Shown here one piece after another: positions 3,125 through 44,681 of a stretch of DNA of 64,000 nt (position 1 is its first letter; each line of letters opens with the position of its first letter). Below the pieces are notes generated by a model, which did not search any database, was not told where the DNA came from, and worked only from the letters and a program-made list of their open reading frames with translations. Where the stretch lies: positions 4,693,988 to 4,757,987 of the forward strand of contig NZ_CP011272.1 of assembly GCF_001610875.1 (NCBI RefSeq), read 5' to 3'. A program made the translations under genes and the position numbers. Origin of the DNA: Pirellula sp. SH-Sr6A (GTDB lineage: Bacteria > Planctomycetota > Planctomycetia > Pirellulales > Pirellulaceae).

Positions 3125-3705
3125 ACGATTCGGAAAAAAACAACCATCGCGAGACGTGCGTCAACGCATCGTCCATGATATCCATTTATTACGGAGATCT
3201 CAGCGAACTCGCAGAGTGTACGAGTGTTGCCGCCGAACAAGTCCCTGCACCGTACCACGACTTGCTCGCGCACACGAACCACATGACGGTCACGGTCGAA
3301 GAACATCACGGGGATTCCGTGGATGTTCAAGTCCTCCAATCGCATTCCGCGGGCAACCACTACTGCCGTGAGATTCTCCTACTGGCCCAGAAGAGCCGCT
3401 TGGTGGTCCAATACGGTATTGTCCGATTGAATACGAGCTATCTGCCCGACGCCCCCCGAGATGAAATCCTTGCCCAAACCAAACCGCTGGGACGGGTCCT
3501 CATCGAACACGATGTTCTGCGAAAAATCGAACTTTTCCATCTTCTTCGCGTCACCTGCGGCCCCCGACTCGCCCACCTCTTTGGCGTCCCAGTCGGTACC
3601 ATCACCTACGGTCGAACCGCTATGCTCTATTGCAACCACGATCCGGCGATCGAATTGCTCGAAATCGTCCGCCCCGCAAAGATCGTGGCAAATACCGCTG
3701 GATGA
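3121..3705 (+). CDS. Chorismate lyase-like protein (DUF98/UbiC superfamily)
   Basis: A 194-residue cytoplasmic protein. The segments HMTVTVEEHHG (about 59-69), GIVRLN, PLGRVLIEHDVLR and TYGRTAMLYCN...AIELLEIV match the layout of the DUF98/chorismate pyruvate-lyase superfamily (Rv2949c-like), where the late ELLE/TEHF region belongs to the active-site fold. Known members convert chorismate to 4-hydroxybenzoate and pyruvate. Its ATG overlaps the stop of the polyprenyl synthase gene (ATGA), so it is tied to that operon. An aromatic acceptor made next to a polyprenyl diphosphate suggests a prenylated aromatic product, which is inference. The assignment rests on motif layout; catalysis is not proven, and a related ligand-binding role is possible. 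Confidence 0.6.
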   Translation: MNDSEKNNHRETCVNASSMISIYYGDLSELAECTSVAAEQVPAPYHDLLAHTNHMTVTVEEHHGDSVDVQVLQSHSAGNHYCREILLLAQKSRLVVQYGIVRLNTSYLPDAPRDEILAQTKPLGRVLIEHDVLRKIELFHLLRVTCGPRLAHLFGVPVGTITYGRTAMLYCNHDPAIELLEIVRPAKIVANTAG

Positions 3706-3782
3706 CGGATCGATCGGATGGTCCGGTCTCGATTTCACCATCCTCCGCGATCTTTTCCTCAAGGTACTCACGCCACGTTTTC

Positions 3783-4979
3783 ATGACTCTCCAGTCCTCT
3801 CTCTCCTTCCTTGCGACCTGGCCAGCGATCCTCATCGGCGCATCTCTTCGCAACAAGTCGGGCGCCCTTCTCCTTTCTCTCCTTCCCTGCGTCTCTCCGA
3901 TTCAGGTTTGCGCGCAGCAGTCCGCCGTGGAACGAAAGACCATAGTCTCGGTGGAGGGAAGCAAGTTCGTGATCAATGGTCGCCCCACCTACGAAGAGAG
4001 GTCCTGGAACGGAATCCCAATCGAGGGGTTGCTCCTCAATAGCAGGATGGTCCAAGCAACCTTCGACGACCGAAATCCGGATACTGCCAATCGCTGGGCC
4101 TATCCGGATTCCAAGATTTGGGATGCCGATCGCAATACTCGTGAATTCATTTCTCAGATGCGGACTTGGCGAGACCACGGATTGCTCGCCATCACTTTGA
4201 ATCTGCAAGGCGGCAGCCCGGAGGGTTACTCCAAATCACAGCCGTGGCACAACTCCGCCATCTTGGCCGACGGTTCTCTCGACCCACGCTGGATGAAACG
4301 GACAGAAGCCGTTCTCGATGAAGCAGACCGAGTGGGAATGATCGTCATCCTCGGTCTTTTTTACTTTGGACAAGACGAACGGATCCGCGACGAACCAGCG
4401 ATCCTACGTGCAGTCGATGCGACGTGCGACTGGCTACTCGATCGCCACTACACCCACGTGCTGATCGAGATCAACAATGAATGCAACGTGCGCTATGACC
4501 ACCCCATCTTGCAACCAGACCGCGTCCACGAACTAGTGGTTCGTATGCAGTCACGGTCCGAATCCAAAGGGAATCGGCTCCTGGTTAGCACCAGTTATGG
4601 AGGAGGAACGATTCCCAAACCAAACGTTGTCGCAGCCTCCGACTTCGTGCTCCTCCATGGAAATGGCGTCTCCGATCCCCTTCGAATCGGAGAAATGGTT
4701 CGCCAGACCAAAGAAGTTGCCGGCTATCGCGGACAGCCCCTGCTCTTCAACGAAGACGACCACTTTGATTTCGACAAACCCTCTAATAATTTCGTCGAGG
4801 CCCTTCGACATGGCGCTTCCTGGGGATACTTCGACTTTCGTATGAAGGGAGAGTCCTTCGACGATGGCTATCAGTCAGTACCCGTGAACTGGAGCATTTC
4901 CAGCCCAAGGAAACAGAGCTTTTTCCGCACCCTCCGTGAGATCACCGGAGTGCGGCCCATGCAAGACTCTCAGCGCTAA
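3783..4979 (+). CDS. Secreted glycoside hydrolase-like protein (GH5/cellulase-type barrel)
   Basis: 398 residues from the ATG at 3783, chosen because a hydrophobic export signal follows (GALLLSLLP, probable cleavage after VCA near residue 44). An ATG 153 bases upstream in frame would add an Arg-rich tail in front of the signal and is unlikely. Glu233 in the EINNECN motif sits where clan A glycosidases carry the acid/base Asn-Glu pair, and Glu324 in FNEDDHF is a candidate nucleophile. W/G-rich strands between them fit a TIM barrel. The polysaccharide substrate is unknown. It follows the terpenoid operon with a 77-base gap and converges on the PEP-CTERM gene. Confidence 0.65.
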   Translation: MTLQSSLSFLATWPAILIGASLRNKSGALLLSLLPCVSPIQVCAQQSAVERKTIVSVEGSKFVINGRPTYEERSWNGIPIEGLLLNSRMVQATFDDRNPDTANRWAYPDSKIWDADRNTREFISQMRTWRDHGLLAITLNLQGGSPEGYSKSQPWHNSAILADGSLDPRWMKRTEAVLDEADRVGMIVILGLFYFGQDERIRDEPAILRAVDATCDWLLDRHYTHVLIEINNECNVRYDHPILQPDRVHELVVRMQSRSESKGNRLLVSTSYGGGTIPKPNVVAASDFVLLHGNGVSDPLRIGEMVRQTKEVAGYRGQPLLFNEDDHFDFDKPSNNFVEALRHGASWGYFDFRMKGESFDDGYQSVPVNWSISSPRKQSFFRTLREITGVRPMQDSQR

Positions 4980-4993
4980 CGCACAAAGCGAAA

Positions 4994-5063
4994 ACAGCGT
5001 GCACCCCATCGACAGATACCCACGAAACCTGTCTATGCACCGAAGTGAGCGAGTGCACGCTGT
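4994..5063. terminator. Nested inverted repeat between convergent genes
   Basis: ACAGCGTGCAC at 4994-5004 is the perfect reverse complement of GTGCACGCTGT at 5053-5063. Inside it a second hairpin pairs GACAG with CTGTC. It lies between the ends of the glycosidase-like gene (+) and the PEP-CTERM gene (-), so a bidirectional terminator is the simplest reading. No long T run follows on either strand. Confidence 0.45.
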
Positions 5064-5081
5064 GGTTCTAGAAAAATGGGG

Positions 5082-5798
5082 CTAGTCCAGATTCTTGTCG
5101 AGGAAATGCAAAGACTCGCCTCCACGGCGTACCATGCGTCTTCGAAACCAAAACCCGCCCATCATCGCAGTTCCGATCAATAACGCAGAACTTGGCTCTG
5201 GTACCGCTGCGACTGTGCCATTGAGAACAATGCCCCCGTAGTCCGGATGATGGACCAGCCTCCAAGTTCCCGCCGACGACTCCGCGGCAAACCCATAGAT
5301 TCGTATGTCCACCGTATCGGTAACGCCGGAAAGCCCCGTCAGACTAATGGAATGGTCTCGCAGCGCATCGCTGTCAGGCACAGAAAACGAATACTGAGAA
5401 GTGAAGGTGGAGAACTGATCAAGGCTCGTCCTGATTTGGAATTCTCGAACCCCGCTAAGAGACCGACGTTCCCCCAACACAAGATCTTCGAGATCCAGAG
5501 CGTAACCTGGCGCTGCCGTGACGGTGAATTGAAAATAGTCGGTCAAATCGATCGAAGGCATAGTAGTGAAACCGCTCGCGTTGAACGACCCGATTCCCGA
5601 TGACGTATTGAGACCGGGCCCGCGCACGAGGGAAGTAGCAAAGACATTCGGTGCAACCACGGGCGACGTAGAAGCTTGATTACCCGGTTGCGAACTCACA
5701 TCAAACGTAACGATACCCGCGTTTCCTACCAAGGTGCTGGAAAGGATCCAAGCCGTCCAGGCAAACAGACGGAGACCAACTGCATAGACTCGTTTCAT
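5082..5798 (-). CDS. PEP-CTERM sorting domain protein
   Basis: 238 residues. An N-terminal signal peptide (LRLFAWTAWILSSTLVGNAG) is followed by a Ser/Thr/Gly-rich secreted body with no recognised catalytic motif. The C-terminus is the classic sorting tail: VPEP at 199-202, a hydrophobic helix (ALLIGTAMMGGFW) and an RRRMVRR cluster. Such proteins are processed by an exosortase/archaeosortase-type system and delivered to the cell surface or matrix. No exosortase gene is in this window. About 18 residues extend beyond the basic cluster, longer than usual, so the tail may have drifted. Confidence 0.85.
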   Translation of the reverse strand: MKRVYAVGLRLFAWTAWILSSTLVGNAGIVTFDVSSQPGNQASTSPVVAPNVFATSLVRGPGLNTSSGIGSFNASGFTTMPSIDLTDYFQFTVTAAPGYALDLEDLVLGERRSLSGVREFQIRTSLDQFSTFTSQYSFSVPDSDALRDHSISLTGLSGVTDTVDIRIYGFAAESSAGTWRLVHHPDYGGIVLNGTVAAVPEPSSALLIGTAMMGGFWFRRRMVRRGGESLHFLDKNLD

Positions 5799-6189
5799 CG
5801 CAATACTCCAAGTGACATATCTGGTTGAACCGGTCCAAAGGACAGGTCAACAGGAATCGAAACGACTATGAGAGAAGCACACCGATCACGGACGAAGACG
5901 AAAAGCGACCTTAGTTAGGTGCCAGCCTTCGGGGACCATCCAGGTCGTGCAACGAGAGCGTTCACAACGCGCGCGGTAGAAACCGCAAAAGAAAAGGGCG
6001 TGGGCATTTCCAGTTCCTCATGGAGATCGGGCGTACAACTCACATGTCAACTTCCATCACCATACAAGATTCCCCCGCGGAGATGCCACGATTTGGCGCA
6101 TGATTTTTTTAAAAATAAGGAGAATAGTTTCGCTCGCACTTTGTGTTAGACACTGCTGAACTGGGCCGAACCGACCACGGCTGTCTTCA
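5799..6189. other. Intergenic stretch, no gene seen
   Basis: Upstream region of the PEP-CTERM gene and left edge of repeat array 1. I see no credible coding frame. The last part (from about 6160) contains decayed pieces of the repeat units, for example an incomplete CAACAGAT arm. Confidence 0.6.
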
Positions 6190-6327
6190 GCCCTCAACAG
6201 ATTTGCATCGCCTGACGCATCGCGCAAACTCAGAAACCTATCCCACACCCCTGCCTTCAGACGGCGTTTGAGGCAGGTGATCTCCGCGAGAATGTCGCGA
6301 ATCGAGCGGTCGTTCGTTTGCGTCATA

Positions 6328-6516
6328 GATCCTGAAAGGATCCAAGCTTGTAGCCGGGGGTCGAACGTAAGCGACACCCCCGGTCACCCCGCGCCTTCTC
6401 CTATCCCGAAGGGATTAAAGATTCATCTTGCATCCCGTTGGGATGCGTCCAACGAAATCCACCGGGGGTATCGCTCGCGCTCAACCCCCGGCTAATGGCT
6501 CAAGTCCTTTCAGGAC
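6328..6516. repeat. B-unit palindromic core, array 1 copy 1
   Basis: Imperfect inverted repeat of about 190 bp with nested hairpins: GATCCTGAAAGGATC at the left, GTCCTTTCAGGAC at the right, long CCGGGGG...CCCCCGG stems on both sides and the small hairpin ATCCCGAAGGGAT near a centre at AAAGATTCATCTT. The central palindrome is broken by one base compared with array 2. Confidence 0.8.
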
Positions 6517-7048
6517 AAAAGAGCTAACCGGTCGGCATTGTGGATCTGTTGTCCTCAACAGATCAGCATCGCCTGACGCATTGCACCCGTTAAGAAACTT
6601 CCCCCCGGACTATGGACCAGAGAGCTTGGGGGGAGAAGTGGTTTGGTCGATAGAGCGGTGGTCTATAACGCTGGAACGGTCGAGGACGACCGTTCGACAT
6701 TGTCTAGCCGTCGTCCATTGTGGATCTGTTGTCCTCAACAGATCAGCATCGCCTGACGCATTGCACCCGTTAAGAAACTTCCCCCCGGACTATGGACCAG
6801 AGAGCTTGGGGGGAGAAGTGGTTTGGTCGATAGAGCGGTGGTCTATAACGCTGGAACGGTCGAGGACGAACGTTCGACATTGTCTAGCCGTCGTCCATTG
6901 TCGATCTGTTGTCCTCAACAGATCAGCACCGCCTGACGCATCGCGCAAACTCAGAAACCTATCCCACACCCCTGCCTTCAGACGGCGTCTGAGGCAGGCG
7001 ATCTCCCCGAGAGCGTCGCGAATCGAGCGGTCGTTCGTTTGCGTCATA

Positions 7049-7235
7049 GATCCTGAAAGGATCCAAGCTTGTAGCCGGGGGTTGAGCGCAGCGACACCCC
7101 CGGTCACCCGAGCCTTCTCCTATCCCGAAGGGATTAAAGATTCATCTTGCATCCCGTCGGGATGCGTCCAACGAAATCCACCGGGGGTATCGCTCGCGCT
7201 CAACCCCCGGCTAATGGCTCAAGTCCTTTCAGGAC
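7049..7235. repeat. B-unit palindromic core, array 1 copy 2
   Basis: Same nested architecture as the first copy of this array, including GCATCCCGTCGGGATGC to the right of the centre. The copies differ by scattered substitutions that mostly leave the stems paired. Confidence 0.8.
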
Positions 7236-7445
7236 AAAAGAGCTTAACGTTCGGCATTGTCGATCTGTTGTCCTCAACAGATCAGCACCGCCTGACGCAT
7301 TGCACCCGTTAAGAAACTTCCCCCCCGGACTATGGACGGGAGAGCTGGGGGGGAGAGGTGGTTTGGTCGATAGAGAGGTGGTCTAGCGCGCAGAACGGTC
7401 GAGGACGACCGTTCGACAGTTTGACAGTTCACTTTCTAGCTCTGA

Positions 7446-8042
7446 CTATTTAGACGTCTTTCCCCGTTTGCCAGCGTCTCCTTTGCCCTGTCCTTCTCCA
7501 CCCGCTCCAGGACCACGCTTTCCGGGTCCAGGCCCCCCCTCGCCTTGCGCGCCAAATCCTTGCCCCTGCTGGCCGCCCCCGGGCTGACCGAATCCTCCTG
7601 GGCCACCTGCTCCAGGTCCAAAGCCTTGGGGACCGCGTCCCATTTGCTGCAATGCTTGAAGCTGCATAGGGGTTAGGATTTTGGCAAGCTCCGCATCCAC
7701 GGTCGCTTGCAACTTCGCAATGGCGGCCCGTTGTTCTGGCGTCGCCTGAATCTGCTCGATCAAGGGATCAGGAAGTATGATGCCCGGGCGCATCATGAAA
7801 CCCATCCCCCACCCCTGCCCTTGGCCGGCAGTACCCTGGCCACGCGGACCACCTCCACCTTGACCACGAGGACCACTAACACCTCCACCTTGACTGGACG
7901 CATTACCCGCTTGCCCCTGAGCAGCCTCCCCTCCCTTACCGCCTTGCCCCTTTTTCGCCCCCCCTCCCTCTCGGGGTGGTTGGGCCAACGATCCAGTCGC
8001 AATCATCCCAGCCATGGCCATGGCAAGTGTTATTCGTTTCAT
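7446..8042 (-). CDS. Exported Gly-rich protein of unknown function
   Basis: 198 residues. Signal peptide MKRITLAMAMAGMIATGSLA, then a Gly/Gln/Pro-rich low-complexity region (about 22-75), a short structured helical segment (about 80-130: LIEQIQATPEQRAAIAKL... and ILTPMQLQALQQM), and another Gly/Pro-rich tail ending in basic residues. The helical part resembles the LTxxQ-containing segments of Spy/CpxP-like periplasmic proteins and of planctomycete exported proteins, but the match is weak. The next gene upstream is 174 bp away. Its 3' end lies next to repeat array 1. Function unknown. Confidence 0.65.
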   Translation of the reverse strand: MKRITLAMAMAGMIATGSLAQPPREGGGAKKGQGGKGGEAAQGQAGNASSQGGGVSGPRGQGGGGPRGQGTAGQGQGWGMGFMMRPGIILPDPLIEQIQATPEQRAAIAKLQATVDAELAKILTPMQLQALQQMGRGPQGFGPGAGGPGGFGQPGGGQQGQGFGAQGEGGPGPGKRGPGAGGEGQGKGDAGKRGKTSK

Positions 8043-8216
8043 CGTTCTGTCTTTCCTGAGAGAAGAGTCTTTGTCGCCGTTCGCAATCGTACCGCAGGTC
8101 GCGCGTCGAAAGATCGAACAGCTCTAACAGACCATTAGATCCGACGTGCGACGGCAAAGTTACAAATATTCTCTCCTTATTTGATGCGAATAGGAGGACA
8201 ACCCCTCCGCAGTCGT

Positions 8217-9206
8217 TCAAGCCATCAATCGGTACATGCCATACCCAAGCCAAACGGCGATAACGAATCCACTCGCCAAGGCAAATCCCCCCCATCGACG
8301 CGTCGCTTTCATCTGCCACCACATCGCGATACCACTAATCCCCCAAAACACCATGACAGCCGCCATGACATCCACCACGATCGCCCAGATCCACCGCGTT
8401 CCTCCGTCAGGGTGATAACCATGCGAGGTGTGCAATCGCAGCCAGAACTGACGCCACGAAAAAGACGTTGCAACGTTGTTGTCAACTGGCTTGGTGGAGA
8501 CTGACCCCACCAACGCATCGTGCTTGCACTCCCAACTCTGGCCGTCGGCATCCACTTGAAATACCAATGCCGGGAGATAGGAAACGCGAAGGGAGGACGC
8601 CTGGACATCTAGTTCTGGATCTCGCTGGTTGGCGATCTTTGCAACCTGCGATTGGAGTCGTTCCAACAACCCTTCTTCCAATCGAAGAGGGAGCTGCTGA
8701 AGGGTCGGCTCCCCGTCGGACACCGGGCCTCCGTTTGAAGGCGTTCTCTTCGCTTGCACTTCAAAGAATGCTTTCCCCGTCGGAGATGCAGGATTCCCTT
8801 TGGGAGCGATCCGGAGAACCCCCGCCTGGCTTCCGGACATTGGCAAGGAATAGCTATAAGTCCTCTCACCCCGATCAAACGACGCTATCAATCCGCTGCC
8901 ATCAAATCGCGGGGTCTTGCTCGTATCCAACCGAATGCGATCGTCTCCGTTCGAAAACCGTTCATTGAGTTGCTGCACGATCGCTTTGGCTCGTTCTTCC
9001 GGTTTCCAAGCCCGAGTCGCCCAATCGTCGGGTAAGAGGGATTGGGAAACAGACTCCACATCCACCGGCGAAAAATGAGCTGGATGATTGAACAGATAAG
9101 CGGTTACTCCATAGAGAAACACCCACGGAATCAATGCGAGCCCCAGATACAGGTGACAGCGTCTCAACACACGAAAAAGCAATTTGATCGTTCGATTGCG
9201 AACCAT
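8217..9206 (-). CDS. PepSY-associated transmembrane protein
   Basis: 329 residues. It starts with basic residues and a transmembrane helix (about 17-40: HLYLGLALIPWVFLYGVTAYL), then a large extracytoplasmic part, then two C-terminal helices (about 270-292 and 305-326) preceded by LRLHTSHGY. This is the layout of PepSY-associated TM proteins, often linked to iron-siderophore reduction or to peptidase control. RRCHLYLGL and HTSHGY supply histidines that in related proteins might bind heme (inference). It lies 41 bp behind the XRE-NTF2 gene, so the two may be co-transcribed. Confidence 0.75.
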   Translation of the reverse strand: MVRNRTIKLLFRVLRRCHLYLGLALIPWVFLYGVTAYLFNHPAHFSPVDVESVSQSLLPDDWATRAWKPEERAKAIVQQLNERFSNGDDRIRLDTSKTPRFDGSGLIASFDRGERTYSYSLPMSGSQAGVLRIAPKGNPASPTGKAFFEVQAKRTPSNGGPVSDGEPTLQQLPLRLEEGLLERLQSQVAKIANQRDPELDVQASSLRVSYLPALVFQVDADGQSWECKHDALVGSVSTKPVDNNVATSFSWRQFWLRLHTSHGYHPDGGTRWIWAIVVDVMAAVMVFWGISGIAMWWQMKATRRWGGFALASGFVIAVWLGYGMYRLMA

Positions 9207-9247
9207 AGATTAAGAGGAGTCAGAGGGTTGTTAACAACTGCAGTCAA

Positions 9248-9892
9248 TCAGAGGCGTCCAAGCCGCTGCAGAAGTTCCATGAAACACTGGGATGCGTAGC
9301 GCGTATCATACTCGTCATCGACGCGAACGATTCGCCCATCCTGGAATTGAAAATGCAGATTGACCCAAAACGGTGGCATCGGGTGGGACTCGAAGAAGAC
9401 CTGATCCTCATAGCGTGCCACGATGCGATGATCCGACTCCAAATAAACCGGCTTTAAACTACCCCGCGTCCGCGAGAAAACACTAAAAAAGAGATCAAAG
9501 AACAATTGCAATCCGTCTCGGCCTCTCCAGACTCCCGCGAAAGGTACTTGCGCGTTATCCCCTGGGCAATGCAACTCCACGTCCTCCGAAAATATCTCAC
9601 CACAATGCTGCATCATGGCAACTCCATGTCGATCGTACGCGTCGACAAATTGCATCGCCATCGTTAGCTGATTCAGAACCAACTCCTGCACTGCTACTCG
9701 GCGTTCCGCGGTCGACAATGCCTCTGCTAGATCGTGCAAAGTGCTAATGCGAAGGAATCCTCCCGCTTCTGCTTTTCGAATAGCCCTCTCCGAATAACCT
9801 GACCGGGCCGCAAGATCGAGTTGCGTCATCCCCGCCAGCTTCCGAAACTCGGCAAGCCTCCGTCCGTTCACAACCCATCCCGAATTGTTCAT
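9248..9892 (-). CDS. XRE-type HTH regulator fused to an NTF2/SnoaL-like domain
   Basis: 214 residues. Residues about 10-60 form a helix-turn-helix of the Cro/C1 family (RRLAEFRKLAGMTQLDLAARSGYSERAIRKAE, quoted here in short pieces: GMTQLDLA, GYSERAIRK). Residues about 80-210 look like an NTF2/SnoaL fold: MQFVDAYDRHG, FSEDVELHCPG, F..GVWRGRDG, and the closing F.FQDGRIVRVDDEYD. Such folds bind small hydrophobic ligands, so a one-component ligand-responsive regulator is a fair inference. It lies 10 bp behind the sialate-esterase/NHL gene and 41 bp before the PepSY gene. Confidence 0.7.
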   Translation of the reverse strand: MNNSGWVVNGRRLAEFRKLAGMTQLDLAARSGYSERAIRKAEAGGFLRISTLHDLAEALSTAERRVAVQELVLNQLTMAMQFVDAYDRHGVAMMQHCGEIFSEDVELHCPGDNAQVPFAGVWRGRDGLQLFFDLFFSVFSRTRGSLKPVYLESDHRIVARYEDQVFFESHPMPPFWVNLHFQFQDGRIVRVDDEYDTRYASQCFMELLQRLGRL

Positions 9893-9902
9893 CGCCAGAA
9901 TC

Positions 9903-12900
9903 TCACTCGTTGGTTATGCGAAGAATACGGTCATTATAGGTATCCGTGATCCAAAGCTCTCCGGTCTTCGGATGAATCGATACCCCGTGGGGACGAGCGA
10001 GCTGACAATCCAGAGGCTCACCACCTACTCCAACGTCTCCCCGCTGGCCCGTTCCTGCAATCCGCTCAAGACGATCGATTCGCGGATCATATCGCAAGAC
10101 CACATGGTTTTCTGCATCGGCTATGACCACGCGGTTTTCGAGATCGATGCACAAATGCTTGGGGCCAAAAAGCCGCCCATCGGCCCCCGTTGTTGTCTCG
10201 AGCTTCACTCCCTTTTCACCCGAAGGATTGATCAATGTCCTTATACGTCCAAAGGGGTCGACGACGCGCAGCGCATTCCCATTCCTCTCCAACACATAAA
10301 CATTCCCAAGACGATCCGCCGCCACCGCACGCGGATCCACAAGCGGGGATTCGGTGGCGAGCGCCCCATCTTTCGGAATCCCTTTCTTTCCATTCCCGGC
10401 GACGACCTCTATTGCCCCATCTCGACAATCGATTCGCAGTACCTGCCTCAAGTCGGCGACGAACAAGTAGCGTCCAGTGAAATCGATCGTCGCGCAGTAA
10501 GGACCGTTTCTCCTCGCTTGCTCCTCTGGCACCGCGTAACCCTTCAGACTCTCCACGATCCCCGTACCAGAATCAAAGGTTCGAATCCGCCCATTCCAAG
10601 TATCCGCGATGTAAAGGCGTCCCGAAGGAGCCATGGTCAGATTATGGGGCCCCTGAAATTGAGCCTTCAAACCATCGCCACCATCCCCGAAAAACCCAGG
10701 CTCTAACTTTCCTGCTCGATGCCTGAGAACGCCTTCCAGATCGATGCTCAAGAGGCGATTCCCTGCTGCCATTTCAATGATCCAAGCTGTCCCGTCGGCC
10801 CCCCAATCCAAACCGAATGGCTCATGCAGCTTTGCCTCCGTTGCTGTTATCTTCACTTCCTCACGTTTGCCGCCCGCCACCAGTTCAATCACTTGCTTTT
10901 GGATCGGAACACTTGGCTGCACCTTTTTTCTCAATACCCGAATGCGGTGGGTCTCGCTATCACCGATCCATACCGATCCATCGTAATCGACAAAGATTCC
11001 ATGCAGCCTCGCTAATTGGCATCGCAAGGGATCACCGTCGGGTCCATCCCCTTTCTCACCTGTACCCGCCACCAACTCCAGGATTCCACTATCCGCTCGA
11101 ATCCGCCGAACCGAATGGCTTTCCGTGTCAGCCAGCCAAACGTTTCCATCCGCATCGATAGCAATCCCCTTCGGTCCCTTTAGTCTGGCTTGCGTGGCAG
11201 GCCCACCATTCCCATCGAAACCGCTCTCGCCTGTCCCGGCCATATGTTGAATCGTACCGGCCTTGCTATCGAACCGGAAAACTTGATTCCCTTCGCGCGT
11301 GGCCAACCACAAATTACCGTGACGGTCAAAATCAATGGAACGGGGCCCCTTCAGCGGAGTACCAACAATAGGAGCAACGTCGGGAGTAGGCCCCGGTTTT
11401 CCTGTCCCTGCATAAGTCGTGATCACCCCTGTTTCACGATGGACTCGCCGGATCACATGGTTGCCGATATCGCAAATAAAGAGATCGCCATCGGGGCCGA
11501 ACTGAATGCTGTGCGGTTGCTTTAGCTGCGCCTGGCTCGCCAATCCGCCGTCACCCGAATAACCAGGGGACCCCGTCCCCGCGATGGTGGAAATTATGCC
11601 GGACCGGAGGTCGATTTTACGCACGGCGTGATTGGACATATCGACCACATAAAGATCCCCTTTCGAGTCGAACCGGATTTCGTGCGGCAGATTAAATGTC
11701 GCTTCGAGCGCAGGTCCACCATCACCCGAGTATCCCTTCTCCCCCGACCCGGCGATGGTTTGAATCACCCCGTTAGGCAGGATCCTTCGAATCCGCTGTC
11801 CCGTGTACTCACAGAACCAGATTGCATGATCCGGTCCTCGAATGACTCCGAACGGATTATCCAGCTTGGCCATGCGAGCCGGTCCTCCATCCCCGCTGTA
11901 CCCCTGCTCACCCGTTCCCGCAAACGTCTCTATCGTCCAATGCTCCGGACTCTCCAAAGGCTTCTGCGAACTTCCCGCAAGTGGCTTCTGAGCCGGGAGC
12001 AGCTTTAGCATCGCGTCCGCGAATCCAACTCCAATCCCTCCTAAGATTTTTGCAGAGCCTAAATAATGGAACTCCAGATTCGAGATCCCTTTGACAAGGA
12101 TCTCTCGCTCCCGATCGGTAAGCTCCTGCTGCACCAACTCGTCGGCGACCTTTCTCTCCTCCTGCGCCCCGAGCTTGCGCTCTTTTGCCAACTCCTTGGC
12201 GCGCTGGCGAGTTCGATTCTCTTTCGCCTTGGCATCCGAAAGTTCTTTGTCCCAAAACGCTTCTGTCCGGATGGCCACGACATTGTTTTGAAACTCGGGC
12301 AATTTGGCGGGCGCTGCCATCGCATCCCGAAAATGATTGTGCGTCGCTTTGTACCTCTGTTCATCCGGACCATAAAGCTCCGTTGGTCCTCCAACCCCCA
12401 AAACGCCAATCACAAACGGGAGCTTCGGCGCATGGAGATCGGTCCTCACATCGCGAATGAAATGGGCCATGGTTTCACTGTAAGCATCGTACCCCCCCGG
12501 TTTGTCCCGGTTCGGATACGCTCCAGAGTCGACCATGTCGTTCCACCCCTGAAACCACACAAAGCCAGCCAATTCGTAGCCTTCGTCAGGCCGATACCCC
12601 GGGACTACTCGCGGGATATCCGATAGCACGTGCTTCACATGCTCGATCATCATTCGATAGTAAACACCCGTCCCCTTCTCTTTCTCGGCCCGAACGGCAT
12701 CGATGTCTTTCCCTTGTTTCTGAAGATTGGCCAACTGCTCGGGAGGAAACGGATAGGCTCCCGCACTTGGAGGCCGAAAGTCCGTGTGCAGACTCTTTCC
12801 CCCCCAAGCAGTCTTGATGATCAAGATGGGACCCTCGAGTTCCTCCTCCATCCTCAATCCAAACGTATATTCTGGTCCCAGCTTCGGACCGTTTTGGTTC

Positions 12901-13235
12901 GCGCCATAGCCGACGGACAGCAATCCTGTCTTCTCGCTCTCAGCGTTGCCCAGCGAGGAGATCCAAACGCGTTGGCAAACCTTCGGTGAGCCATCTGCCG
13001 TCTCGATCAAGTCTCTCAGTGGCTTCGCATCCGGGGAAATCTTCAAATGCTCCAATGTCCGAACATGCGCATGCCCCTGCATGTTCGATTGCCCAGCTAA
13101 GACAAAAATCTTCAGTGGCTGGGCCTGCGCCTCCTTGATTCCTAAACTCCAGGCCCCCCCCAGCATGGCGATGCACTGCAGCAGACGTACTAGAACGGGG
13201 AGAGCGGCGGTAAATGATTTCATCATGGAGAGCAA
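9903..13235 (-). CDS. Sialate O-acetylesterase-type domain fused to NHL repeats
   Basis: 1110 residues, secreted. Three Met codons lie close together at the start; a signal peptide follows (VLVRLLQCIAMLGGAWS...AQA). Residues about 40-410 form a SASA/DUF303 esterase: the block I motif GQSNM at 48-52 with Ser50 as nucleophile, and WFQGWND further on. From about residue 430 to the end there are at least ten NHL-type blades (repeated GTGE.GYSGDGGPA.A.L..P.G motifs), forming one or two beta-propellers. The family removes acetyl groups from sugars; the propeller probably binds carbohydrate or protein. The esterase-NHL fusion is unusual in length. Confidence 0.85.
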   Translation of the reverse strand: MLSMMKSFTAALPVLVRLLQCIAMLGGAWSLGIKEAQAQPLKIFVLAGQSNMQGHAHVRTLEHLKISPDAKPLRDLIETADGSPKVCQRVWISSLGNAESEKTGLLSVGYGANQNGPKLGPEYTFGLRMEEELEGPILIIKTAWGGKSLHTDFRPPSAGAYPFPPEQLANLQKQGKDIDAVRAEKEKGTGVYYRMMIEHVKHVLSDIPRVVPGYRPDEGYELAGFVWFQGWNDMVDSGAYPNRDKPGGYDAYSETMAHFIRDVRTDLHAPKLPFVIGVLGVGGPTELYGPDEQRYKATHNHFRDAMAAPAKLPEFQNNVVAIRTEAFWDKELSDAKAKENRTRQRAKELAKERKLGAQEERKVADELVQQELTDREREILVKGISNLEFHYLGSAKILGGIGVGFADAMLKLLPAQKPLAGSSQKPLESPEHWTIETFAGTGEQGYSGDGGPARMAKLDNPFGVIRGPDHAIWFCEYTGQRIRRILPNGVIQTIAGSGEKGYSGDGGPALEATFNLPHEIRFDSKGDLYVVDMSNHAVRKIDLRSGIISTIAGTGSPGYSGDGGLASQAQLKQPHSIQFGPDGDLFICDIGNHVIRRVHRETGVITTYAGTGKPGPTPDVAPIVGTPLKGPRSIDFDRHGNLWLATREGNQVFRFDSKAGTIQHMAGTGESGFDGNGGPATQARLKGPKGIAIDADGNVWLADTESHSVRRIRADSGILELVAGTGEKGDGPDGDPLRCQLARLHGIFVDYDGSVWIGDSETHRIRVLRKKVQPSVPIQKQVIELVAGGKREEVKITATEAKLHEPFGLDWGADGTAWIIEMAAGNRLLSIDLEGVLRHRAGKLEPGFFGDGGDGLKAQFQGPHNLTMAPSGRLYIADTWNGRIRTFDSGTGIVESLKGYAVPEEQARRNGPYCATIDFTGRYLFVADLRQVLRIDCRDGAIEVVAGNGKKGIPKDGALATESPLVDPRAVAADRLGNVYVLERNGNALRVVDPFGRIRTLINPSGEKGVKLETTTGADGRLFGPKHLCIDLENRVVIADAENHVVLRYDPRIDRLERIAGTGQRGDVGVGGEPLDCQLARPHGVSIHPKTGELWITDTYNDRILRITNE

Positions 13236-13420
13236 AAAGGGAGATAGGCGACGGCGTCGACAAAGGGATTTAGTATAACCAAGCCGAAAGGGGACCGCTG
13301 ACCTGCCACCTATCCCCGACTCCCATCCCCGTCTCTCCTAGCTGCTTCCCAAGCTAGAATCCTCATGAGAACGGTTCGGGGGAAGGTCAACATACTAGAA
13401 ACCTTAGTAAGGAACGATCG

Positions 13421-14902
13421 ATGCGATCCATCAATCCCTTTTTCCATTTCCATGCGAACTTATTGCGTAGCATGGTCTGGTTCGCGATGAGCCTTGCTTT
13501 CTGTTTTGGTGGAGTTGCCACACAAAGCGTTCTCGGAGCCAAACCGAACTTCGTGGTTTTCCTATCCGACGACCATTCGCAACGCGATTCGCAACCCTAC
13601 GGTGCAACCGACATTCGCACCCCCCACTTGATGCGACTTGCACAACGGGGACTGCTATTCGAACAAGCCTTCATTGCCAGCCCTGCTTGCGCTCCCAGCC
13701 GAACCGCCATGCTCACCGGACGCATGCCTGCGAGAAACGGGGCTGAAGCCAACCACAGTTACAAACGGGACGATGTTCTCTCGCTCCCCAAGTTCCTACA
13801 AGAACTTGGATACGAAACGGCCGCCTTCGGGAAAGTAGCCCACGGCAAGACAGATATCTCGAGGCATGGCTTCGATCGCTTCGAGGAGAAACACGACATC
13901 GAAACGGTTCGGGCCTTTTTAACTTCCCGCGATGCAAACAAACCTCTTTGCCTTTTCGTCGGTACCCACGAACCCCATGTCCCTTGGCCTGAAAACCGGG
14001 GATATCAACCTCGCTCTCTGAACCTTCCCCCGACGCACATCGATACACCGGAGACGAGGAATTTCCGCAGTCGATATTATTCCGATGTGACCGAGGCGGA
14101 TCGACGACTCGGGGAAGTCATGGACGCGGTCGACGAGCTGCTCCCCAAAGAATCCACCGCTTTGATCTACACCAGCGACCACGGAGCCCAATGGCCTTTC
14201 GGAAAGTGGAATCTTTACGACGAAGGGATCCGAGTTCCATTGCTCGTCTCGTGGCCCGGCGTCGTTCCAGAAAAGGCACGCACCCAAGCCATGGTCCAAT
14301 GGATCGATCTCTTGCCGACCCTCATCGATCTCGCGGGCGGCGTTCCCCAACCCGACTGGGACGGCAGATCGTTCACACCCATCTTGAAGCAACCCGAAGG
14401 CGCGCATCGCCAAGAAATCTTCACCACCCATAGCGGGGACGGAAAGATGAACGTTTATCCCATTCGAAGTATCCGAACCAAGGAATGGAAACTAATCTGG
14501 AACCTGCACCCAGAATTCGCACACACCACACACATCGATAAAGCCTTGGCTCGAGATGGCGGGCGATACTGGATCTCTTGGTTCGAGAAAGCCAAGATGG
14601 ACGAGAAAGCGGCGGCGACGGTGCGTCGATACCATGAACGCCCAGAATGGGAACTCTATTACCTCCCCTCGGATCCTTGGGAAACAACCGATGTCGCATC
14701 CGATCCCACCCACGCCAAAACCATGGCCAACTTGAAAGCAAAGCTAAAGCAATGGATGCTGGAGCAGGGAGACACGAAACAAGTTTTCAACGAACCTCGA
14801 CTCTTGTCCGATCCCACTTCGACCGTACCCGGTGAGAATGCACACACCGACACGCCCAACGCCCCTGTTGCGAAACCACAAAATCCTCCTAACACGAAGT
14901 AA
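13421..14902 (+). CDS. Secreted sulfatase (type I, Cys formylglycine)
   Basis: 493 residues; AAGGA lies six bases before the ATG. A hydrophobic export segment (about 18-40) precedes NFVVFLSDDH, with Asp50/Asp51 as metal ligands. CAPSR at 90-94 is the CxPSR motif whose Cys90 is oxidised to formylglycine by a sulfatase-modifying enzyme. GKVAHGK and YTSDHGAQ supply further active-site residues. The family hydrolyses sulfate esters, in marine and freshwater planctomycetes mainly on algal polysaccharides; SPACAPSRTAMLTGR and the overall length fit N-sulfoglucosamine sulfohydrolase-like members. It is divergent from the esterase-NHL gene and 27 bp ahead of the DUF885 gene. Confidence 0.92.
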   Translation: MRSINPFFHFHANLLRSMVWFAMSLAFCFGGVATQSVLGAKPNFVVFLSDDHSQRDSQPYGATDIRTPHLMRLAQRGLLFEQAFIASPACAPSRTAMLTGRMPARNGAEANHSYKRDDVLSLPKFLQELGYETAAFGKVAHGKTDISRHGFDRFEEKHDIETVRAFLTSRDANKPLCLFVGTHEPHVPWPENRGYQPRSLNLPPTHIDTPETRNFRSRYYSDVTEADRRLGEVMDAVDELLPKESTALIYTSDHGAQWPFGKWNLYDEGIRVPLLVSWPGVVPEKARTQAMVQWIDLLPTLIDLAGGVPQPDWDGRSFTPILKQPEGAHRQEIFTTHSGDGKMNVYPIRSIRTKEWKLIWNLHPEFAHTTHIDKALARDGGRYWISWFEKAKMDEKAAATVRRYHERPEWELYYLPSDPWETTDVASDPTHAKTMANLKAKLKQWMLEQGDTKQVFNEPRLLSDPTSTVPGENAHTDTPNAPVAKPQNPPNTK

Positions 14903-14929
14903 CCCCCAAGCGAGTCTTGTAGAATCACC

Positions 14930-16696
14930 ATGAAGCATTTAAACACTCCATTGCACCTAAGCCTTTGCGCGTCGGTCTTTATCCTGCTTGCCGTGACAAC
15001 TCCGTGGGTATGGGGTCAATCCACGGGGGCTCCGAAATCGATCGATAGCGCCTTTCGGGAGTGGCTCGACGAAGAGTGCAAACGCCACCCGATCTTTGCA
15101 TCGCAATTAGGGAAACGAGACTACGATGGATTGATGGATGATCTTTCCCCTGCGGCTCGCAAATCCGACCGCGAACGGGATCAATCGGTCCTAGCCGAAC
15201 TGAAGACGAAGTTTCAGGGGAAAGAGCTAACGCGAGATGAACAGATCGATCTCGAGATTTGGCAAAACTATCTGCAGTACCGGATCTGGCAATCGACGCA
15301 AATGGATGATTTCGCCAACGATCCGAGGGTCTATTTGTCTTACTGCTCCGACAGCGTCTTTGGACTTTTCACGCAATCCTCTTTGCCAAAGCACCGAAAT
15401 ATCGCCAATGCCGCCTCCCGCATGGGCTTCGTCCCACAAGTCATCGCGGCAGCCAAACAATCGATCCAGAATCCGCCCAAAGTGCTCACCGAAATCGCGA
15501 TCAAGCGCACGGAGGGTGCAATCTCCTTTTACGAGCGCGAGATTTTTGAACTGGCAGACGAATCTCCGCAGCTAAGCTCGCTGGCGACGCCAGCTCGGGC
15601 GGCCGCAGCGGCCTTGAAGGAATTCAAAACCTACCTGGAGAAGGATGTTCTCCCCCGATCGACGGGTGATTGGCGAATTGGCAAGGAAAAATTTGCCGAG
15701 AAGCTAGCGATGGAATTGGACGCAGGCCTCACCGCGCAGGACGTTATTGAAACGGCGGAATCGGAAGCAACTCGCGTCGAGCGGGAGATGTACTACGTTG
15801 CCAAACAGCTTTGGAGCTCTCTCTTCCCAAGTAAAACACTCCCTCCCGAGGATGAAGCGGGCAGACGCGACACGATACGGCTTGTCCTGAAGGAGCTGGG
15901 CAAGTCCCATGGGACCGAGGCGACGCTTGTCGAAGATGCGAAAGCCACCGTGCAGCGAATCAAGGACTTCATCGAAGACAAGAGAATCCTCACCCTTCCG
16001 AATCCCGATCAATGCGACATCATTTTGATGCCGGAGTTCCAACGAGGCTTTTCCGTGGCCTACTTGAACCCAGCCCCCCCTCTGGATCCCAGCTCGAAGA
16101 GTTTGTACGCCATTGCACCACCTCCTTCGGACTGGCCCGATGATCGGAAAGAAGCATTCCTGCAGGAATACAATTCGGCCATGCTTCAAATCTTGACCAT
16201 TCACGAAGCCTATCCTGGTCACTATGTGCAATTGGACTACAGCAATCGATCGCAATCGCTGGTCCGCAAGGTCCTTTATTCGGGAGTCTTTGCCGAAGGT
16301 TGGGCCGTTTACACCGAACAGATGATGTTGGACCAAGGATACGGTGAAGGCGATCTATCGCTCCGACTCCATCAGCTCAAGTTCTACATTCGCGCGGTAC
16401 TCAATGCGATCCTGGACTATCGGATGCACTGCACGGAGATGACCGATGAGGAAGCGTTGTCACTCCTCGTGGATCGGGGGTTTCAAACGACCGGGGAAGC
16501 GGTTGGAAAAGTTCAACGAGCCAAACAAAGTTCGTGCCAGCTATCCACCTACTTCGTTGGCCGCACCGCCTTCTACCGATTGCGTCAGCAAGTGCAACGA
16601 GCGCGGGGCGAGGGATTCGACTTAGGCCAATATCACGAAGAAGTCCTCTCCCACGGCACCTTGCCCGTGAAGTATTTGCCCGAACTGGTCAAGTAG
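14930..16696 (+). CDS. DUF885 family protein (putative metallopeptidase-like), secreted
   Basis: 588 residues with a signal peptide (LSLCASVFILLAVTTPWVWG). The family hallmark HEAYPGH is at 425-431, followed by FAEGWAVYTEQ about 30 residues later, a pattern like gluzincin peptidases with a distal Glu. DUF885 members are probably zinc-dependent hydrolases; substrates are mostly unknown. The N-terminal RxGxRDYDG-type segment (LGKRDYDGLMDD) is also typical of this family. It is 27 bp downstream of the sulfatase gene and probably in the same transcript. Repeat array 2 begins about 25 bp after the stop. Confidence 0.85.
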   Translation: MKHLNTPLHLSLCASVFILLAVTTPWVWGQSTGAPKSIDSAFREWLDEECKRHPIFASQLGKRDYDGLMDDLSPAARKSDRERDQSVLAELKTKFQGKELTRDEQIDLEIWQNYLQYRIWQSTQMDDFANDPRVYLSYCSDSVFGLFTQSSLPKHRNIANAASRMGFVPQVIAAAKQSIQNPPKVLTEIAIKRTEGAISFYEREIFELADESPQLSSLATPARAAAAALKEFKTYLEKDVLPRSTGDWRIGKEKFAEKLAMELDAGLTAQDVIETAESEATRVEREMYYVAKQLWSSLFPSKTLPPEDEAGRRDTIRLVLKELGKSHGTEATLVEDAKATVQRIKDFIEDKRILTLPNPDQCDIILMPEFQRGFSVAYLNPAPPLDPSSKSLYAIAPPPSDWPDDRKEAFLQEYNSAMLQILTIHEAYPGHYVQLDYSNRSQSLVRKVLYSGVFAEGWAVYTEQMMLDQGYGEGDLSLRLHQLKFYIRAVLNAILDYRMHCTEMTDEEALSLLVDRGFQTTGEAVGKVQRAKQSSCQLSTYFVGRTAFYRLRQQVQRARGEGFDLGQYHEEVLSHGTLPVKYLPELVK

Positions 16697-17517
16697 TCGT
16701 TGGCAATATGCTGTCCACGATCGTCGATCTGTTGTCCTCAACAGATCAGCATCGCCTGACGCATCGCGCAATTTAAGAATCTTTCCCCCACGGACGATGG
16801 ACCGGAAAGCTCGGGGAGAGAGGTGGTTTGATCGATAGAGCAGTGGTCTAGCGCGCAGAACGGTCGAGGACGACCGTTCGACATTGTCGATCTGTTGTCC
16901 TCAACAGATCAGCATCGCATGACGCATCGCGCCAGCTAAGAATCCTTCCCCCCCGGACGATTGACCAGAGAGCTTGGGGGAGAGGTGGTTTGATCGATAG
17001 AGCAGTGGTCTAGCGCGCAGAACGGTCGAGGACGACCGTTCGACATTGTCGATCTGTTGTCCTCAACAGATCAGCATCGCATGACGCATCGCGCCAGTTA
17101 AGAATCTTTCCCCCCGGACGATTGAACAGAGAGCTTGGGGGAGAGGTGGTTTGATCGATAGAGCAGTGGTCTAGCGCGCAGAACGGTCGAGGACGACCGT
17201 TCGACATTGTCGATCTGTTGTCCTCAACAGATCAGCATCGCATGACGCATCGCGCCTGTTAAGAATCTTGCCCCCGGACGATTGACCAGACAGCTTGGGG
17301 GAGAGGTGGTTTGATCGATAGAGCAGTGGTCAAGCGCGCAGAACGGTCGAGGACGACCGTTCGACATTGTCGATCTGTTGTCCTCAACAGATCAGCACCG
17401 CATGACGCATCGCGCAAACTCAGATACCTATCCCACATTCCTACCTACAGACGGCGTTTGAGGGACGAGATACCCACGAGAGCAATGCCCATCGAGCGAT
17501 CGTTCGTTTGCGACATA

Positions 17518-17708
17518 GATCCTGAAAGGATCCAAGCTTGTAGCCGGGGGTTGAGCGCAAGCGACACCCCCGGTAATGCCCCGCGCCTTCTCCTATCCCG
17601 AAGGGATTAAAGATTAATCTTGCATCCCGTCGGGATGCGTCCAACGAAATCCACCGGGGGTATCGCTTACGCTCAACCCCCGGCTAATGGCTCAAGTCCT
17701 TTCAGGAC
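17518..17708. repeat. B-unit palindromic core, array 2 copy 1
   Basis: About 190-bp imperfect palindrome centred on the perfect palindrome AAGATTAATCTT at 17610-17621. Outward from the centre lie paired small hairpins (ATCCCGAAGGGAT and GCATCCCGTCGGGATGC), then CCGGGGG...CCCCCGG stems, then GATCCTGAAAGGATC and GTCCTTTCAGGAC at the ends. Confidence 0.85.
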
Positions 17709-17880
17709 AAAAGAGCTTAACGGTCGACATTGTCGATCTGTTGTCCTCAACAGATCAGCATCGCCTGACGCATTACGCAAACTCAGATACCTATCCCACA
17801 TTCCTACCTACAGACGGCGTTTGAGGGACGAGATACCCACGAGAGCAATGCCCATCGAGCGGTCGTTCGTTTGCGACATA

Positions 17881-18069
17881 GATCCTGAAAGGATCCAAGC
17901 TTGTAGCCGGGGGTTGAGCGTAAGCGACACCCCCGGTACCCCCGCGCCTTCTCCTATCCCGAAGGGATTAAAGATTAATCTTGCATCCCGTCGGGATGCG
18001 TCCAACGAAATCCACCGGGGGTATCGCTTACGCTCAACCCCCGGCTAATGGCTCAAGTCCTTTCAGGAC
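17881..18069. repeat. B-unit palindromic core, array 2 copy 2
   Basis: Near-identical to the first copy of this array; centre AAGATTAATCTT at 17971-17982. Differences are few (for example in the GGTAATGCCCC versus GGTACCCCC stretch), pointing to recent duplication. Confidence 0.85.
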
Positions 18070-18263
18070 AAAAGAGCTTAACGGTCGACATCGTCGATCT
18101 GTTGTCCTCAACAGATCAGCATCGCATGACGCATCGCGCCTGTTAAGAATCTTTCCCCCGGACGATTGACCAGACAGCTTGGGGGAGAGGTGGTTTGATC
18201 GATAGAGCAGTGGTCTAGCGCGCAGAACGGTCGAGGACGACCGTTCGACTTTTGAGACCAACG

Positions 18264-18296
18264 AAAAAAGCCTGCAGAGGATCTACAGGCTTTTTT
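18264..18296 (-). terminator. Rho-independent terminator of rplL
   Basis: AAAAAAGCCTG at 18264-18274 pairs perfectly with CAGGCTTTTTT at 18286-18296; on the minus strand the stem ends in six T. It lies about 40 bp beyond the rplL stop, so the ribosomal protein transcript ends here. The hairpin is symmetrical and could also stop transcription coming from the DUF885 side. Confidence 0.88.
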
Positions 18297-18336
18297 GCAT
18301 TTTTGGGGTAAGCAGGCTCCAATTTGGAGCCAGACC

Positions 18337-44579: not shown

Positions 44580-44591
44580 CGATCTTGCCCC

Positions 44592-44681
44592 CCACTCGCC
44601 ACTCGCCACTCGCCACTCGCTACTCGCTACTCGCTACTCGCTACTCGCTACTCGCTACTCGCTACTCGCTACTCGCTACTC
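44592..44681. repeat. Heptanucleotide tandem repeat (CTACTCG)n
   Basis: Four CCACTCG units (44592-44619), then eight CTACTCG units (44620-44675) and a broken copy, about 12.7 copies in all. It fills the gap between the M14 gene and the PPC-like gene. On the minus strand the PPC-like gene's TAG stop (44678-44676) is part of the first unit, and the M14 start lies 13 bp past the last. Confidence 0.95.

Follow-up and report, generated by a model that had tools for sequence, protein, structure and literature searches.

Tandem arrays of GTCG-tagged, BIME-2/REPIN-like units and a RAYT-type transposase gene in a Pirellula genome

REPtrons combine BIME-2 or REPIN elements with a RAYT (TnpAREP) gene. 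Their unit is an inverted pair of REPs that occurs in tandem copies with the RAYT among them; the hairpin stems are lineage-specific, and the copies sit in intergenic regions at the 3' ends of genes. The published REP tag is GTAG (or GTGG). None of its bases could be changed in E. coli, the third- and fourth-base changes tested in S. maltophilia abolished cutting, and GTCG is not mentioned among the changes in the available text of the report (PMC8266576). TnpAREP subclass 2.7 is characterized, in the accessible part of PMC6006769, by the motifs [ND]HVH, WQ and YI[LR][NQ]NP and by REPs of the GT[AG]G type. REPINs of P. fluorescens SBW25 form ordered tandem clusters and adjoin RAYTs, the largest ordered cluster in the excerpted account comprising four REPINs and one REP (PMC3116915). 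The CGTC/TGTC REPs, a separate superfamily, have an 8-9 bp stem opening with A-T pairs, a 4-5 nt loop and a CCA-like tail, and the available text of PMC3733652 associates no transposase gene with them.

We analysed a 64,000-nucleotide stretch of the Pirellula sp. SH-Sr6A chromosome (the window), in which two tandem arrays enclose a 9.3-kb gene block (Table 1). A previous sequence-only reading had proposed that both arrays are built from the same two unit types, A and B. The positions, unit order and single orientation it gave were all reproduced by sequence comparison and TRF, with scores of 791-1481 for the rows of both arrays. The opening hairpin that it described as common to A and B units is present as GATCTGTTG-TCCT-CAACAGATC. 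A units also close with an inverted partner hairpin, GAACGGTCG-AGGA-CGACCGTTCGAC, so that in the window they carry two inverted hairpins at their ends, each with a 9-bp stem, a TCCT loop and an outer GTC-G tag. In array 2 the A units are 160-163 nt long; most of those in array 1 have 180 nt. B units measure ~359-363 nt. Folded as single-stranded DNA, one A unit gave a z-score of -3.35 (equalled by 0 of 200 shuffles) and one B unit a z-score of -9.15 (0 of 100).

Table 1. Coordinates of the arrays, their units and the enclosed genes in the window.
Feature	Position	Strand	Remark
Array 1 (B-A-A-B-A)	6190..7417	+	
B unit 1 of array 1	6190..6536	+	head hairpin degenerate
A unit of array 1	6537..6716	+	GTGG as head tag
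A unit of array 1	6717..6896	+	99% identity to preceding A unit; GTGG as head tag
B unit 2 of array 1	6897..7255	+	
Final A unit of array 1	7256..7417	+	tail hairpin 7391-7417
Array 2 (A-A-A-A-B-B-A)	16723..18249	+	flanked by convergent DUF885 and rplL
Four A units of array 2	16723..17365	+	163, 162, 161 and 160 nt
Two B units of array 2	17366..18089	+	363 and 361 nt
Final A unit of array 2	18090..18249	+	
Inverted-repeat element nested in B, TAGCCGGGGGT...ACCCCCGGCTA	6328..6518	.	approximate ends
Inverted-repeat element nested in B	7049..7235	.	approximate ends
Inverted-repeat element nested in B	17519..17708	.	approximate ends
Inverted-repeat element nested in B	17892..18069	.	approximate ends
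Enclosed gene block (Gly-rich, PepSY_TM, XRE-SnoaL, SASA-NHL, sulfatase, DUF885)	7418..16719	.	array neighbour, outside the element

Open reading frames run across the arrays, for example at 6428-7312. Because most unit lengths are not divisible by 3, these frames are probably not genes, and the Rfam search gave no match in either array; both observations agree with the proposal that the units are non-coding. A lone sub-threshold Rfam match (E 0.4) lies outside the arrays, at 18261-18323.

The family extends well beyond the window, and the other copies that the sequence-only reading had called for do exist. In the stretches examined of this 6.53-Mb Pirellula-type genome we found 148 head hairpins at 24 places, two of which hold single units; nearly all of the heads found sit in arrays. 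A genome-wide scan with the hairpin pattern (heads and tails, at most 2 mismatches) returned 204 matches, and the reversed control returned none. Thirteen of the 24 places and 94 of the 148 heads fall within a single 136-kb hub among polysaccharide genes, a setting that resembles the EPS gene cluster of Thauera sp. MZ1T, which is flanked by GTAG-1 arrays, in another phylum and with another tag (PMC3733652, available text). The longest arrays have 13 heads, more than the largest SBW25 cluster. Heads start with GTC in 142 of 148 cases, the next base is G in all 148, and the loop is TCCT in 142; both GTGG heads belong to array 1. Head stems are paired in 1317 of 1332 pair cells. Tails are less regular, and just 57 passed the scan because many in the hub depart from the window tail hairpin. 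A-type units range from 147 to 192 nt, with conserved ends and interiors that vary between arrays. Among 107 units of 135-200 nt, mean identity is 0.90 within arrays (293 pairs) and 0.77 between arrays (1490 pairs). Half of the array places (12/24) lie between convergent genes, compared with ~22 of the 179 other pairs of neighbours (Fisher P 5e-5).

The RAYT-type transposase gene whose presence was to be checked was found inside the densest hub (G000:C1:1680501-1681208), with units on both sides. Its product matches Pfam Y1_Tnp at 24 bits, barely above the cut-off of 23, and NCBIfam REP_Tyr_transpos at 53.6 bits, below the cut-off of 80. With this sequence alone, a PDB search at E up to 1 returned E. 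coli TnpAREP (4er8) as the sole match (E 0.0025); a 16-row profile reached the same entry at E 8.3e-6. The NHxH motif and the tyrosine are invariant in all 16 genus rows. Relative to the subclass 2.7 motifs, NHVH fits and YIRENP is close, but the protein has WK instead of WQ, that is, a lysine in place of the guide-contacting glutamine found in most relatives, and the associated tag is GTCG.

Most RAYT homologs in relatives have flanking hairpins with a constant TCC apex and lineage-specific stems. Across the order, 59 of 83 RAYT loci have at least two GTAG- or GTCG-tagged hairpins with a TCC or TCT apex within their 1-kb flanks. None of 23 DUF885 loci of the genus and none of 83 shuffled RAYT loci reach two, and one shuffled locus has a single tagged hairpin. 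For six control tetramers, two hairpins were reached at 0-3 of the 83 loci. Seven of the 83 have no TCC-apex hairpin. Across 27 genus genomes, most of them incomplete drafts, RAYT presence (cut-off E 1e-10) and apex-motif counts agree loosely: G019 and G017, with 73 and 80 motif copies, lack a RAYT match at that cut-off, and G012 and G004 have a RAYT with 4 and 2 copies.

The arrays and the RAYT together form a REP/RAYT system, and its tandem arrays are BIME-2/REPIN-like. An HUH Y1 transposase gene is flanked by the hairpins, a fixed 4-nt tag stands at the 5' foot of short hairpins in inverted pairs, and these pairs are repeated head to tail, as in BIME-2 or tandem REPIN arrays. Lineage-specific stems and intergenic siting at 3' ends are further shared features. 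The system differs from described REPtrons in its GTCG guide, which departs from the published GT[AG]G, in units of ~150-190 nt with large linkers, in the length of its arrays and their concentration in one hub, and in the second element nested in B units. With the CGTC/TGTC superfamily as described in the available text of PMC3733652, the units share TGTC before the stem, a 9-bp stem, a 4-nt loop and outer tags. They are not members, as their stem starts with G-C, their tail is AG or TG in place of CCA, and a transposase gene is associated. The kinship to REP/BIME elements is thus stronger than the likeness in style first claimed, given the number of heads, the RAYT-like gene in the hub and the recurrence of hairpins around the RAYTs of relatives.

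We therefore read the arrays as tandem runs of a non-autonomous REP doublet of the BIME/REPIN type, most likely served by the hub RAYT, and assign this reading a probability of about 0.87. By analogy, the HUH-tyrosine enzyme would bind the hairpin in single-stranded DNA, with the adjoining 4-nt guide selecting the cut, and, as in published REP/RAYT work, would then move or copy the unit. Since units are far more alike within than between arrays, arrays probably expand on the spot through tandem duplication. B units are probably A-type units that were invaded by an unrelated inverted-repeat element (with TAGCCGGGGGT ends) and then co-amplified. Convergent genes would offer the insertion sites of least harm, and any host role there, in mRNA 3' ends or supercoiling, would be secondary. 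Several observations weigh against this reading: the tag is not GT[AG]G, hub tails are degenerate, RAYT presence and motif counts fit loosely, the window enzyme has Lys for Gln, some RAYT loci lack a TCC-apex hairpin, and the closest relative compared has mostly GTCC or GTCT hairpins and no RAYT homolog.

This relative, Pirellula sp. Prado168 (G040), has a fragmented genome that is 82% complete, in which a RAYT homolog was not found. Its hairpins are paired in 174 of 180 stem cells despite differing sequences; the stem swaps include G-C to C-G (pair 1) and A-T to G-C (pair 3). The heads carry GTCG; over all 20 hairpins the base after GTC is G in 7, most others reading GTCC or GTCT.

Prado168 also bears on the proposal that the two arrays recombine as a pair to delete, duplicate, invert or move the block between them, as a composite mobile unit. 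The six enclosed genes are as first listed: Pfam identifies, in order after a Gly-rich protein without a Pfam match, PepSY_TM, HTH_3+SnoaL_2, SASA+NHL, sulfatase and DUF885. Their order is kept in Prado168, but the block is inverted beside the same left flank (LF), and the LF-DUF885, Gly-X and DUF885-rplL junctions are all changed. On the window side the breakpoints lie at the edges of the arrays (6116/6190 and 16695/16723), and the block neighbour X is located at 4.12 Mb in the window genome, 0.58 Mb away. Two array sites thus coincide with rearrangement breakpoints. However, direct repeats predict deletion or duplication and do not explain an inversion, and the LF-DUF885 junction in Prado168 contains no unit of the family. 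A link from X to another array in the window genome found no support, as no family hairpin occurs within 1.5 kb after X. The region after rplL also rearranges in array-free genomes, since DUF885 follows rplL in none of four relatives and the sequence that comes next varies among most of them, with a short match between G022 and G024 (64 aa at 69%). With arrays at 24 places, 12 of which lie between convergent genes, this pair does not stand out as a special structure. The 9.3-kb block is probably no defined mobile unit, the composite explanation is improbable, and the position of the block between two arrays would reflect how common arrays are.

Marginally less probable still is that the arrays are plain satellite-like tandem repeats which the host retains for 3'-end or topology functions, as mRNA stabilisers, terminators, gyrase sites or sites of chromosome organisation, with the RAYT irrelevant. 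The enrichment between convergent genes, the strong local homogenisation, the genus genomes rich in apex motifs without a RAYT match and the host roles of REPs published in the available texts of PMC3733652 and PMC6006769 would fit such elements. Against them stand the RAYT inside an array, its recurrence in relatives with different hairpins, and positions that are not conserved: in the window-genome stretches compared, one of eight Prado168 hairpin sites coincides with an array site. An array of conserved non-coding RNAs or riboswitches, or one of integron-like recombination sites, would share the strong secondary structure and tandem layout but is highly implausible and unsupported, as the arrays have no Rfam match, interiors and lengths vary while the ends are conserved, and the units contain no gene cassettes.

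Within the REP-doublet reading, the tag raises a further question. Counted separately, at least two GTCG hairpins occur at 32 of the 83 RAYT loci and at least two GTAG hairpins at 28 (controls, 0 of 23), and the RAYTs of G002 and G012 likewise have GTCG hairpins next to them. On slightly better than even odds, RAYT guides in the Pirellulales have switched repeatedly between A and C at the third base, GTCG being as frequent as GTAG and the canonical GT[AG]G too narrow. The window species would then represent a switch within a GTAG neighbourhood of the RAYT tree, with the GTCG element amplified into long tandem arrays around a RAYT hub. The odds are lowered by Prado168, where most hairpins are GTCC or GTCT. 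A change of Gln95 to Lys was considered as a general cause of the GTCG tag and rejected, as WQ is found at most other GTCG loci and in the second piece of the RAYT from G002, itself tagged GTCG; the pair at this site is WK in the window species and WF in G012.

If the guide has switched, the published guide-pairing model predicts that GTCG enzymes should cut at CG rather than CT. A comparison of CG and CT at fixed places near the hairpins, as a candidate footprint of this predicted cut, gave a mixed result: CG is commoner on the 3' side of GTCG hairpins (0.40 versus 0.19 of loci at offset 2), but GTAG loci have no matching CT there (0.04). Related RAYTs, which are domesticated single-strand transposases, with GTAG or GTCG hairpins in one order offer a natural experiment on guide reading and cut choice. 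They also bear on the apparent lack of an enzyme for CGTC/TGTC-tagged repeats in the available account (PMC3733652). To this the window genome contributes a chromosome in one contig, with long BIME-2-like arrays and a single hub.

The window holds two arrays built from the same two unit types, A and B, with the positions, unit order and common orientation that the sequence-only reading had claimed, and the six genes it listed between them (Gly-rich, PepSY, XRE, NHL, sulfatase and DUF885; a 9.3-kb block) agree with ours. The A unit has a hairpin of the same build at either end, the two mutually inverted: the head reads GTC-GATCTGTTG-TCCT-CAACAGATC and the tail GAACGGTCG-AGGA-CGACCGTTC-GAC. Both are predicted, along with weaker inner hairpins, when one A unit is folded as a single strand (z -3.35, better than 200 of 200 shuffles). 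The B unit consists of an A-type head, a large inverted repeat whose ends are TAGCCGGGGGT, and a shortened tail; one B unit folded as a single strand reaches z -9.15. The array unit is best read as a REP doublet linked to a REP-associated tyrosine transposase (RAYT, TnpAREP). Elsewhere in the window (44594-44681), the heptamer ACTCGCT is repeated in tandem 12.6 times at the border between the minus-strand ORFs 43305-44609 and 44676-46832.

Arrays in the window and Y1_Tnp genes of the window genome
Feature	Position	Length	Arrangement or setting
Array 1	window, about 6190-7417		B-A-A-B-A, single orientation
Array 2	window, 16723-18249		A-A-A-A-B-B-A, single orientation, same as array 1
RAYT-like gene	contig, 1680501-1681208	236 aa	in the hub, A-type units on either side
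Second RAYT-like Y1 gene	contig, 1925401-1925922		own GTAG-AAGCGGCG hairpins nearby, different from and unrelated to the arrays
Third Y1 gene	contig, 864235		scores as IS200-type transposase

The units also occur beyond the window. A scan of fetched stretches of the genome (one contig, 6.53 Mb) gave 148 heads in 24 same-strand groups, all counted as array places, including two with one head each. Only 57 tails pass the scan, because many tails in the hub, the region densest in arrays (1.545-1.682 Mb; 94 of the 148 heads, 13 of the 24 places), diverge from the window's tail form. A binomial figure for this clustering assumes that places are independent and serves as a rough guide. Across the whole genome, a degenerate pattern for heads and tails (up to two mismatches) has 204 matches and its reversed control none. 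In part of the hub (1616711-1618000), unit lengths rise in ~22-nt steps (148, 170, 192), which would fit the gain or loss of an internal module of 22 nt. The hub (1545317-1681668, stretches L021-L028) also carries ParA/ParB-like genes (1554637-1556539) and, among eight hub proteins scanned, surface-polysaccharide types: GDP-mannose dehydratase, UDP-GlcNAc 2-epimerase, UDP-sugar dehydrogenase and glycosyl/sugar transferases.

The doublet would have spread through single-strand transposition and multiplied locally by tandem duplication, a step supported by homogenisation. Among 107 units of 135-200 nt, mean identity is 90% within arrays (293 pairs) versus 77% between them (1490 sampled pairs); arrays therefore appear to grow in place. 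Arrays are commonest between convergent genes. Such a setting applies to 12 of the 24 places (13 by our home-made gene caller, before one missed gene was added), compared with about 22 of the 179 remaining pairs of neighbouring genes in these stretches (Fisher P 5e-5). B units are best read as units that a second element has invaded. Matches to the TAGCCGGGGGT end number 40 at up to two mismatches (reversed control, 5), and 36 of them fall within or next to arrays of the A/B family, so this is a second element co-carried in B-type units.

The suspected kinship to REP/BIME elements is confirmed and extends to a partner enzyme: among three Y1_Tnp genes found in the genome, one encodes a RAYT-like transposase in the hub. 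Its match to NCBIfam REP_Tyr_transpos lies under the cut-off and that to Pfam Y1_Tnp just over. E. coli TnpAREP (4er8) is the only PDB sequence match of the single protein (E 0.0025); a 16-row profile improves this to 8.3e-6 and adds a marginal match (0.55) to the putative transposase 2f4f. Searches for homologs were positive in 18 of 27 genomes of the genus (E 1e-10) and, at E 1e-40, in 67 of 396 genomes of the order, the latter an even sample of a larger group.

Hairpins around the nearer genus homologs share the array apex (TTG-TCCT-CAA or a close variant) but have differing stems; they form inverted pairs, often in tandem. We compared 83 RAYT loci (the best 21 of 37 genus matches and 62 of 76 from outside the genus). 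Two or more TCC/TCT-apex hairpins tagged GTAG or GTCG, the tag being the 4-nt foot beside the hairpin, lie within 1 kb of the RAYT at 59 loci; none of 23 genus DUF885 loci and none of 83 shuffled loci show this. Six other tetramers used as tag give two or more hairpins at 0-3 loci and at least one at 0-9. Split by tag, two or more hairpins occur at 32 loci for GTCG, 28 for GTAG, 6 for GTGG and 4 for GTTG, the last two ambiguous because GTCG-TGG and the like can be read as either. A majority-tag tally gave GTAG 30, GTCG 28, GTGG 6, GTTG 4, other 8 and none 7 before four loci misread in this way (L151, L153, L168, L179) were reassigned to GTCG by hand. A quick-method RAYT tree of 82 rows has weak support at 33 of its 79 inner branches. 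On it the GTCG label requires 8 gains or losses, at least six of which are forced by starred branches; shuffles require 25.1. The window genome's RAYT stands at an open fork together with GTAG relatives. In one genus genome, the RAYT (L050/L115, G002:C90) is split into two frames; even so, seven GTCG hairpins lie in its flanks. Counting against GTCG tracking, only 7 of 20 hairpins carry GTCG in Pirellula sp. Prado168 (G040), the closest relative compared, most others having GTCC or GTCT; the genus-wide RAYT search (27 genomes, E 1e-10) found no homolog there.

The G040 and window DUF885 proteins share 95% identity across the 220 residues compared (at most 76% in other genus genomes), and window 1234-6116 is collinear in G040. 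About 270 bp follow, with no hairpin of the A/B family, and then the DUF885 3' end in opposite orientation. Two more contigs hold sulfatase-NHL-XRE and XRE-PepSY-Gly in window gene order, and their broken genes suggest that all three adjoin. After Gly come a hairpin unit, its orientation relative to Gly opposite to the window's, and X, a gene for a kinase (Pfam Pkinase). The window genome carries X at 4.12 Mb; homology with G040 ends where X ends, and no A/B-family hairpin lies within 1.5 kb after it. From gene order, orientation and junctions, we therefore read the block as a conserved gene run, inverted and re-joined, with arrays at both window junctions.

The arrays are a possible cause of this, no more: direct arrays alone cannot turn a segment round, and what follows rplL varies in array-free genomes too. 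After rplL, G040 has a gene read as Wzz-like, with no Pfam family assigned; the sequence in G022, G015 and G024, other genus genomes, differs from it, although one short stretch, which resembles part of a recombinase, is common to G022 and G024. Apart from that stretch, the window genome (18337-18744) and four relatives (L120, L122, L123, L124) all differ here. Of eight G040 hairpin sites compared in the stretches fetched, a single one, at the Gly 3' end, falls at an array site of the window genome. That the block between the arrays is a mobile unit is unproven.

In published work, most REPs belong to one of two superfamilies, GTAG or CGTC (often TGTC), with transposase genes reported there for GTAG only (PMC3733652). 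GT[AG]G is termed canonical, and automatic search used GTAG/GTGG feet, atypical feet of other subclasses, such as CnGA in class 3, coming from manual inspection (PMC6006769). E. coli TnpAREP is described as tolerating no tag change, and in S. maltophilia the tested third- and fourth-base changes abolish cutting; in Marinomonas a tag change shifts the cut dinucleotide, in line with guide pairing (PMC8266576). Under such a guide model, the GTCG tag would predict a CG cut. An in-silico footprint gave mixed signals: at offset 2 on the 3' side, CG is more frequent for GTCG hairpins (0.40 versus 0.19 of loci), yet no corresponding CT stands out at GTAG loci (0.04). Tandem REPIN clusters, the largest described having four REPINs and one REP, and RAYTs with adjoining REPIN clusters are also on record (PMC3116915). 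Among the matches listed from open-licence PMC papers, none described a GTCG tag on REP or TnpAREP systems. The system differs from the REP/RAYT systems of these papers in its GTCG guide, the apparent repeated switching between GTCG and GTAG, and its long arrays.
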